This document shows positions 9,658 to 35,747 of a stretch of DNA of 64,000 nucleotides, piece by piece. The DNA comes from Blattabacterium sp. (Mastotermes darwiniensis) str. MADAR. GTDB lineage: Bacteria > Bacteroidota > Bacteroidia > Flavobacteriales > Blattabacteriaceae. The position numbers and the translations under genes are program-made. The stretch lies in the NCBI RefSeq assembly GCF_000233435.1, contig NC_016146.1, positions 491,672-555,671 of the forward strand, written 5' to 3'. The notes beneath the pieces are model-generated. The model did no database searches. It was not told the DNA's origin and saw only the letters and a list, made by a program, of their open reading frames with translations. Position 1 is the first letter of the stretch. Every line of letters begins with the position of its first letter.

Positions 9658-10388
9658 ATGAACAAATATCCTATTTTATCAGAAGAAAAATTAATAAAAA
9701 TGTTTGATAATATTTCTTACAATTATGATTTTATTAATCATGTTTTGTCTTTCGGAATAGATATTTTATGGAGAAGAAAAGTGATAGATTTATTAACCAA
9801 TATTGGTAAAAAAAAAATCAAAAAATATTAGATTTGGCTACTGGAACTGGAGATCTAGCTTTATTGATAGCTAAAAAATTTCATGATACCAATGTTATTG
9901 GTTTAGATCCTTCTGAAAAAATGCTAACAATAGCCAGAAATAAAATAAAGAATAATCTTTTAGAAAAAAGAGTAAAATTTATTCAAGGATATTCACAAAA
10001 TATTCCTTTCAATAAGGATACTTTTGATGTAGTAACTATTGCCTTTGGAATAAGGAATTTTCAATATTTTCATCTCTCTCTTAAGGAAATATATAGAATT
10101 CTTAAACCTTTAGGAATTTTAGAAATTTTAGAATTTTCTAAACCTTCGAATACTTATATAAAAAAAATTATTGATTTATACTATCGTTTTATGGCTCAAA
10201 TAGGAAGTTTTTTATCTAGAAACCGTTTTGCCTATAAATATTTACAGGAATCCATTCAATCTTATTCCTATTGTGGAAATAAAATGAAAAGAATTTTAAG
10301 ACATCATAAATTTAAAACTATTTATACCAAAACATTAACATTTGGAATTGTTTCTATTTATTTATCAAAAAAAAATGAATTTGATTAA
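9658..10388 (+). CDS. ubiE: Demethylmenaquinone methyltransferase, split by a poly-A frameshift
   Basis: SAM-dependent methyltransferase for the last step of menaquinone synthesis (UbiE/MenG family). From ATG 9658 the frame reads a normal N-terminus (MFDNISYNYDFINHVLSFG) for 58 codons and then hits TAG at 9832. The rest, with the SAM motif LDLATGTGDLA and AFGIRNFQ, continues intact in another frame to 10388. The switch lies in a run of ten A at 9808-9817: one extra A would give ...GKKKNQKILDLATGTGD and a 243-residue protein of normal family length. No other defect is visible, so either transcriptional slippage makes some functional enzyme or the gene is a very young pseudogene. menD in the window serves the same pathway. 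Confidence 0.88.
9808..9817 (+). repeat. Ten-A run at the ubiE frame break
   Basis: Ten consecutive A bases after GGT in ubiE. The gene frame upstream leads to TAG 15 bases downstream; adding one A restores the conserved frame. This is the sort of tract where RNA polymerase is known to slip in A+T-rich endosymbionts. Confidence 0.9.
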
Positions 10389-24461: not shown

Positions 24462-25879
24462 ATGAAGGGAAGGGTATAAGAAATTTATTTACAATTTTTA
24501 CAGTTATTATTCTTACATCTATTTGTTTCTATTATATTATTAATTCTTTTATACTTTTATAAATAAAACCCTAAATCTAGGTTTAGATTTAAAAGGAGGA
24601 ATAAGTATGATTGTAGAAGTATCTGAAAAAAGTCTATTAAAAAAATTTTCTGATAATTATAAAAATACAATTTTTTTAAAATTATTAGAAAAAGCAGATG
24701 CAAAAAAAGAAAAAAATACTAATACAGATTATTTTTCTTCCTTTCTCCATTTTTTTTATAAAGAAAAAAAAAAATCTAGGATACATTTTTCTCTTTATGA
24801 TTTTTTTATCCAAAAAAATCAAGACATAAAGAAACTGAATAATGTGAATAATTCAGATGAAGAAATGGAAAAAATTATTAGAATAAAAATGGAATCATCG
24901 ATTTATAATACTTGTAATATTCTGAAGTATAGAATAGATAAATTTGGATTGAGTACACCTAACATACAAAGAATTCATAATTTCAATCGAATTCTAATAG
25001 AATTATCTGGAACAAAAGATATACAAAAATATTTTACAAAAAAAGGCTGAATTAAACTTTTTTGAAGTATGGAATTTACAAGAAATACTTCCCTATTTTG
25101 AAAAAATAAATGAAATTTATTATAAAAATTATTCTTCTTCATTTCCAGAAGTAAAAACATTTGGAAATGAGAATCAATTAAAAATAGTAACTAAATACAA
25201 GATATGGGATGACAATAATCAAGTGGATCAAGAAATTTACAAAAAGATGTTTTTATCATTGAAACCTTATTTTAAAAATATAAATTTTAATGATTTTAAA
25301 GGAAAAGAAAATTCTTTAGGGATTATATCTTACGAAAAAGTAGGTCCTATTATAGCTAAAAATATGACTAAAAATGCTTTTATTTCAATATTTATATCTT
25401 TATTAGGAATATTTTTATATATTTTTATAAAATTTAAAAAATGGCAGTTTGGTTTAGGAGCTGTGATGGCTTTGCTACATGATATCATTCTTGTACTTGG
25501 AGTATTTTCCATTTTTCATAATTGGAATCCAATTTTAGAAGTAGATCAGTCTTTTCTAGCCGCTTTGTTGACTATCATAGGTTATTCAATTAATGATACA
25601 GTAGTTATTTATGATAAAATTAGAAAAATTTCAAATATTTCTTCTTTGATGGATTTTAGAAAAATTATAAACAATGGAATTAATCATTCTTTAACAAGAA
25701 CTATGAATACTTCATTCATTACTTTATTTGTTATAGGAATTATTTTTTTATTTGGAGGAAATACTATTCGTAGTTTTATGTTGGCTTTATTACTTGGAAT
25801 AAGTATTGGGACTTATTCTTCCATATTTGTTGCTTCATCTATAGTATATGATTTATCTAAAAAAACAAAGAAAAAATAA
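24462..25879 (+). pseudogene. secDF: SecDF translocase subunit, internally deleted and frameshifted
   Basis: Remnant of the fused SecD-SecF protein that uses the proton gradient to pull preproteins out of the Sec channel. The flavobacterial protein is roughly 1000 residues; about 470 codons remain in three reading frames. ATG 24462 runs into TAA after five codons, while the next frame encodes the first membrane helix (FTIFTVIILTSICFYY). The frame switches again between 24544 and 24562 to LGLDLKGGISMIVEV and part of the SecD periplasmic domain, then at a seven-A run (25038-25044) to AELNFFEVWNLQEI. Here SecD stops and SecF periplasmic sequence (EVKTFGNENQLKI) follows directly, so SecD helices 2-6 and SecF helix 1 are lost. 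The SecF part is well conserved: FGLGAVMALLHDI and LTIIGYSINDTVVIYDKI. A GTG at 25223 could start a lone SecF-like product of 218 residues. tatA starts in its stop codon. Confidence 0.85.
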
Positions 25880-34824: not shown

Positions 34825-35747
34825 ATGAAAAAACATATATATCCTTCTAAAATTTTATTATTTGGAGAATACTGCATCTTAGAAAATTCTAGTGGACTTT
34901 CCATTCCTTATGATTTTTATCAAGGAACTTTAAAATTTATTTCTGTATTATCTTCCAATAAAGAATCCATATATTCCAATTTTGAATTAAAAAAATATTT
35001 TCAATTTTTGTTAGAAAAAAAAAATTAGCAAAATTTGATCTCGAAAGATTAAACGATGATCTGCAAAAAGGTATTTATTTTCAATCCAATATTCCTAAAG
35101 GATATGGAATAGGAAGTTCTGGAGCCTTAGTTACCGCTATTTATGATAAATACGCTAAAAAAAAATTAAAAAAATGTTTTAAAAATATAAGAATTCTAAA
35201 GGAAATATTTAGTCAAATGGAATCTTTCTTTCATGGAAAAAGTTCTGGAATAGATCCTTTAGTTTCCTACTTCAACAAACCTTTACTTATTCGATCAGAA
35301 AGCAATATCTCTACTATAAATATACCAAAAAAAAAGGAATTTAAAGGGAAAGGAGCTATTTTTTTACTAGATTCTGGTTGCTCTAGAAAAACCTCATCTA
35401 TGATGAGTTTTTTCTTAGAAAAATTAAAAAACGATAAATTTAAAAAAATATTAAAAGAAGAATTTATGAAATACAATGAGAAATGTATTGAATTTTTCTT
35501 GAAAGGAGATTTTAAAATAATGCTAAAAAATGTAAAATTACTTTCCACCTGGGTTTTTCATCATTTTAATACTATAATTCCAAAAAAATTTTGTCAAATA
35601 TGGGAAGAAGGACTTATTACCAATATTCATTATCTAAAATTGTGTGGTTCTGGAGGAGGTGGCTATATTTTATGTTTTACTCCAGATTACAAAATCTCTA
35701 GAGAAAAATTAAAGGACTATACAAAAAAAGTAATTTTTCGTTTTTAA
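34825..35747 (+). CDS. GHMP kinase (mevalonate-kinase-like), split by a poly-A frameshift
   Basis: GHMP-superfamily small-molecule kinase of the kind often labelled mevalonate kinase in flavobacteria; the real substrate is uncertain. From ATG 34825 the first 67 codons (with SKILLFGEYCIL) end at TAG 35026. The remainder continues in another frame from 35025, with the ATP motif PKGYGIGSSGALVTA, the FHGKSSGIDPLVSYF segment and the C-terminal LKLCGSGGGGYIL. The break is in a ten-A run at 35015-35024; one extra A gives LEKKKLAKFDLERL and an unbroken protein of 307 residues. All three GHMP motifs are otherwise intact, so the gene is probably rescued by slippage or only recently broken. rluB follows after 11 bases. 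Confidence 0.82.
35015..35024 (+). repeat. Ten-A run at the GHMP kinase frame break
   Basis: Ten consecutive A bases preceded by TTAG and followed by TTAG. Reading straight through gives a stop at 35026; one added A restores the conserved frame. It has the same length and the same required correction as the ubiE tract at 9808. Confidence 0.9.

Follow-up and report, generated by a model that had tools for sequence, protein, structure and literature searches.

Results

Organization of the ubiE locus

The window, which is the entire 64-kb stretch of DNA analysed, corresponds to positions 491672-555671 of contig C1 of the present strain (G000:C1:491672-555671), and the chromosome of this strain is 587,248 bp long. 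Gene content and relatives place the strain in Blattabacterium, a genus of cockroach and termite symbionts. Outside the block around ubiE, the window was compared with the matching stretches of three relatives. The features discussed below are summarized in Table 1.

Table 1. Features of the window and the evidence by which they are assigned
Feature	Position	Strand	Evidence
ubiE/menG (demethylmenaquinone methyltransferase), frame-broken	9658..10388	+	PF01209 matches both halves
A10 run, ubiE one base short	9808..9817	+	frameshift placed there by comparison with three different intact relatives
Premature TAG in the starting frame of ubiE	9829..9831	+	sequence, ORF reading
Downstream part of ubiE, open and conserved, starting just before SAM motif I (LDLATGTGD)	9819..10388	+	PF01209
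Decayed secDF, a real gene death within the window	24476..25876	+	about half of a 943-aa relative missing, several frameshifts
Mevalonate-kinase-like gene (GHMP kinase), frame-broken	34825..35747	+	PF00288; TIGR00549 below cut-off
A10 run, mevalonate-kinase-like gene one base short	35015..35024	+	

An earlier note on this DNA proposed that ubiE is broken at a run of ten A residues. This run consists of exactly ten A, preceded by GGT and followed by TC, and the frameshift is located there irrespective of which of three intact relatives is used for comparison. Reading from ATG 9658 gives 57 codons of an intact N-terminus and then TAG 9829-9831, as the note described, except that the stop codon begins 12 bases, not 15 bases, after the run. 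The second frame is free of stop codons from 9819 to TAA 10386-10388 and encodes 189 aa. It is open and conserved as claimed, but its share of the protein is larger than the two thirds given (~78%). PF01209 matches the upstream piece with 28 bits and the downstream piece with 149.6-153 bits, in such a way that adjoining parts of the profile are covered in different frames. The rejoined protein consists of 243 aa, the length that had been expected, and intact relatives consist of 243-247 aa. The gene is assigned to UbiE/MenG by a profile match above a curated cut-off, by motif I and by its full length; the intact orthologue at L072:9631-10362 exceeds the NCBIfam UbiE cut-off.

The A run encodes a lysine linker of variable length, which connects the N-terminal helix to the SAM-binding motif LDLATGTGD. 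Without this motif, the 57-aa peptide cannot be an enzyme. The G000 genome contains no other ubiE copy, and its menA, menB and menD genes are intact. The menaquinone pathway has been described as symbiont-dependent in Blattabacterium (PMC9603385). The possibility that the two pieces form a split two-protein enzyme, with a restart at TTG 9834, was also considered and rejected: the second piece would start at motif I and lack the 50 conserved residues of the N-terminus, and adaptation to such a split is seen in no broken copy.

Recurrence of the ubiE break

The ubiE gene is present in all 49 Blattabacterium genomes compared. Comparison of the tract among these genomes, which the earlier note had suggested as a check, reveals that ubiE is split at the lysine linker in seven of them (G000, G005, G027, G032, G033, G038 and G047), so that six species other than the present one are broken at the same site. 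The linker varies between species in both length and make-up, with a longest A run of 4 to 13. All broken copies contain A10-A13: ubiE is broken in 7 of the 17 genomes with at least ten A and in none of the 32 genomes with a shorter run. Expressed in the other direction, at least ten A are found in 7/7 broken but only in 10/42 intact copies (Fisher P = 2e-4). Six of the seven broken copies are one base short, and that of G047 is two bases short. At least six changes are required to explain the broken state on a tree constructed from nine neighbouring proteins (3,528 columns). The nearest relatives of G000, G001 and G042, have an intact ubiE gene, and G047, a member of that group, has its break in a different phase. 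Judged from these genome comparisons, the ubiE linker is a repeatedly breaking site. Long A runs at this linker are broken more frequently than those in 14 other genes of the first 20-kb block (7/17 vs 8/281; P = 2.5e-6). When run length and ubiE breakage are compared in independent pairs on the tree, the relation is not significant, the contrasts being too few.

The ubiE gene of G046 (L047/L097) apparently contains two shifts, one at A10 (reference residue 99) and another, at residue 126, by which the frame is restored, such that ~27 residues between them are apparently left in another frame.

Other genes broken at A runs

The mevalonate-kinase-like gene, which was not mentioned in the earlier note, is a second gene of the window with the same defect. 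It is broken at the same site in 17 of the 49 species, including sister groups such as G005, G029 and G031, and the run is exactly A10 in 15 of these 17. Many of the 17 breaks are common by descent, and these counts are not independent. The remainder of the gene is still under selection: behind the run, dN/dS is 0.15-0.28 in nine pairs that are broken on both sides (each P < 1e-10). The frame seems to have been regained through another nearby indel in G012 and G046 and through A11 in G035. The mvaK gene is listed as a pseudogene in one published Blattabacterium genome (PMC6039017), which may be the same case.

The aroQ gene, which encodes type II 3-dehydroquinate dehydratase (L103:17738 onwards), is one base short at one site with A9-A13 in seven of the 49 species (G004, G012, G025, G027, G028, G038 and G046). 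The three frame-broken genes, ubiE, the mevalonate-kinase-like gene and aroQ, all lie on routes to menaquinone.

Dependence of breakage on run length and direction

The frequency of breaks was determined by frameshift-aware alignment for 32 genes from two 20-kb blocks in up to 49 genomes, with only single frameshifts in otherwise intact genes being counted for each run length. A few frames could not be judged, because the blocks of some relatives contain N runs in or beside genes (L072 16110-16565; L139, which is G031). Breaks are found at 9 of 22,765 runs of A5-A8 (0.04%), of which 7 are among the 5,911 runs of A7-A8, and at 2 of 836 runs of A9 (0.2%), 21 of 357 runs of A10 (5.9%) and 11 of 85 runs of A11 (12.9%). 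The corresponding values for the longer runs are 1/39 for A12 and 5/18 for A13. Breaks are concentrated in the mevalonate-kinase-like gene (17/49), aroQ (7/49), ubiE (7/49) and murF (4/49), and none is seen at the long A runs of rpoN, pnp, asnS, GH3 and fabH in the first 20-kb block.

Almost all breaks at runs of at least nine A (40 of 42) are one base short, which is the defect that a single inserted A cures. The two directions are represented by 14:11 in decayed genes, as compared with 40:2 at A runs (P = 1.6e-4). When only parsimony events are counted, the ratio at A runs is about 15:2 (P = 0.002), although the event numbers depend on the tree. The run-length effect is by itself no proof that rescue is transcriptional, because replication slippage also increases with run length; it accounts for part of the effect, as the supply of mutations.

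Selection on the broken ubiE gene

Added defects elsewhere in the gene, which the earlier note had named as one part of the evidence against its reading, were searched for, and a second lesion is found in none of the seven broken ubiE copies. The G027 and G038 copies are both broken, and comparison of their regions behind the run gives a dN/dS of 0.29, with ~32 replacements as compared with 97 expected under neutrality (P = 1.5e-14). The dN/dS values of G000 ubiE against its nearest relatives are 0.34-0.37 downstream and 0.26-0.32 upstream of the run. These values are higher than those among the near relatives of G000 (0.13-0.21), in the upstream part as well, suggesting that some mild relaxation is possible. 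They are nevertheless well below 1, and neither the further lesions nor the neutral evolution expected of a pseudogene is seen in ubiE.

Genes that are truly dead have a different appearance. The metE gene of G042 (L093) contains 9 frameshifts and the fabH gene of G030 (L081) contains 12, with several stop codons in addition. The several frameshifts of secDF in the window lie outside long A runs, and the reading frame has stayed open in its SecF-like C-terminal domain (218 aa).

Discussion

Probable rescue by RNA polymerase slippage

The earlier note regarded ubiE as a conditionally functional gene rescued by slippage rather than a dead one. This reading gains support from the comparative evidence, namely a single lesion, its recurrence, purifying selection downstream of it, an intact pathway, the sharp increase in breaks at A10 and their bias towards one missing base. 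We consider it probable, on the strength of these genome comparisons, that ubiE carries an inherited frameshift that is partly rescued by slippage of RNA polymerase. According to this model, a one-base deletion would have been fixed in the DNA within the A run of the lysine linker, immediately ahead of the SAM-binding motif. RNA polymerase would slip on this run and insert an extra A into a fraction of the transcripts. The corrected transcripts would give the full 243-aa methyltransferase, while the remainder would give the useless 57-aa peptide. The break would be tolerated, because a minority of correct message would suffice for an enzyme in low demand, and it would arise repeatedly and sometimes be reversed. 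What we observe directly is that ubiE is broken, that the break recurs, that it depends on run length and has a preferred direction, and that purifying selection acts on the downstream half of ubiE, whereas we infer that the rescue occurs in transcription, and likewise its efficiency.

Three points speak for slippage, namely that the threshold lies close to ten A, that single-base insertions are in excess in A/T runs of Buchnera transcripts, and that a share of transcripts is reported to be corrected in other insect symbionts. The RNA:DNA hybrid, which is the stretch over which RNA polymerase slips, is 9 bases long (PMC5574713), and the jump at A10 is near that length. In Buchnera, most insertions made during transcription add one base within an A/T run, and their frequency rises exponentially with run length (PMC5574713). 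The corrected transcripts of such genes amount to 12-50% in aphid and ant symbionts (PMC5009743; PMC3017870). Counting against slippage rescue, the transcription-error study of Buchnera reports no frame-restoring error (PMC5574713).

Alternative explanations

A full-length protein would also be produced from a message that stays at ten A, if the ribosome shifts by −1 on a sequence of the A AAA AAA type, as in dnaX. Such a shift would cure exactly a one-base deletion, and the 40:2 direction agrees with it equally well as with polymerase slippage; moreover, any ten-A run, including that of ubiE, contains the slippery heptamer. However, a search among pseudoknot-free folds detects no stem-loop beyond chance downstream of the run (MFE z −0.61 for ubiE and +0.35 for the mevalonate-kinase-like gene), and ribosomal slippage would already work at A7-A8, where breaks are rare (7/5911), instead of giving a jump at A10. 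The supply of mutations is also lower at short runs, and this rarity should be read with that caveat. We regard ribosomal frameshifting as unlikely, but as the strongest of the alternatives. An assembly or sequencing error, in which case the real G000 run would contain 11 A and ubiE would be intact, is suggested by the fact that ten-A runs are error-prone and that undercalling is the usual error on some sequencing platforms. Yet the frame is kept at 30 of the 32 A/T runs of at least ten bases that lie in coding regions of the window, six other genomes have their break at the same ubiE site, and the break in the mevalonate-kinase-like gene is common to related species. An error governed by run length alone would not choose a gene, and it fails to explain why breaks are found at 7/17 runs of ubiE and 8/281 runs elsewhere. 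Sequencing error is rejected as a general cause on account of this gene dependence, and an error restricted to G000 has a small probability.

The remaining two explanations are less probable still. If ubiE is dead in G000 and further damage has yet to accumulate, it would be a recent pseudogene. Blattabacterium does lose genes, secDF is decayed in the same window, and dN/dS of G000 ubiE is somewhat raised. Nevertheless, a second lesion is seen in 0/7 broken copies, while the dead metE of G042 and fabH of G030 have many; selection acts on the downstream half between G027 and G038, which are both broken; and ubiE is retained in 49/49 genomes, with the rest of the menaquinone pathway intact as far as examined. 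Recent death is thus improbable. Least probable of all is a population in which cells or genome copies with 10 or 11 A coexist, as in phase variation, with the commoner one being assembled and the minority making the enzyme. The run length does differ between close relatives, and in-frame and broken states alternate on the tree, but the presence of A10 in 15 of the 17 species with a broken mevalonate-kinase-like gene would demand that the same majority be reached repeatedly.

Comparison with known systems

Rescue of poly(A)-tract frameshifts by transcriptional slippage, the explanation preferred here for ubiE, has been reported for Buchnera and Blochmannia (Tamas et al. 2008; Wernegreen et al. 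2010; described in PMC3017870 and PMC5009743). Blattabacterium resembles these symbionts in having an AT-rich reduced genome, in which a gene otherwise intact and conserved carries a single indel in an A run of ~9-12, and in that the frameshifts recur or persist between species. The ubiE gene has the sequence features expected of a gene rescued by slippage: it carries a single indel in an A/T run of ~9 or more and is otherwise intact, purifying selection continues behind the break (more weakly in G000 itself), and the break recurs between species, as do those of the mevalonate-kinase-like gene and aroQ. In contrast to Buchnera and Blochmannia, which are Gammaproteobacteria, Blattabacterium belongs to the Bacteroidota, and the genes affected are ubiE, the mevalonate-kinase-like gene, aroQ and murF. 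In addition, with 49 species, run length, direction and recurrence can be treated statistically. No earlier report of such rescue in Blattabacterium was found in the open papers searched; for the flavobacterial symbiont Walczuchella, a single sentence of one paper raises the possibility. The Blattabacterium case probably represents the phenomenon described by Tamas et al. (2008) and Wernegreen et al. (2010), to which recurrence at defined sites and the numbers are added.

In common with dnaX and its −1 frameshifting, ubiE has a slippery run of A with an identical one-base effect on its reading frame. It differs in that no downstream stem-loop is found, that a broken gene would be rescued rather than two proteins being made, and that the threshold is near 10, not 7. 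As at the homopolymeric contingency loci responsible for phase variation, a change in the length of a run within a coding region switches the frame. Unlike those loci, the genes broken here are housekeeping biosynthetic genes of a strictly inherited symbiont and show no sign of adaptive switching.

Implications for Blattabacterium

A wider reading, which we put forward only tentatively and consider rather doubtful, is that ubiE, the mevalonate-kinase-like gene, aroQ and murF are permanently or repeatedly one base out at A10-A13 throughout the genus. The broken state would then be inherited through speciation, as in the many-host clade for the mevalonate-kinase-like gene, the run would be held near ten A, and slippage would serve as a standing layer of expression or as a dosage setting. 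In this wider reading, three of the genes would feed menaquinone synthesis, through the isoprenoid tail, chorismate and the final methylation. To our knowledge, there are no earlier figures for the rate of breaks in natural symbionts according to run length, gene and direction. The present figures suggest that the genes tolerating a large cut in correct message are those for low-demand enzymes, and not rpoN, pnp and asnS, the long runs of which are always in frame here. Because annotation pipelines call such genes pseudogenes, metabolic reconstructions delete pathways that the symbiont still has.
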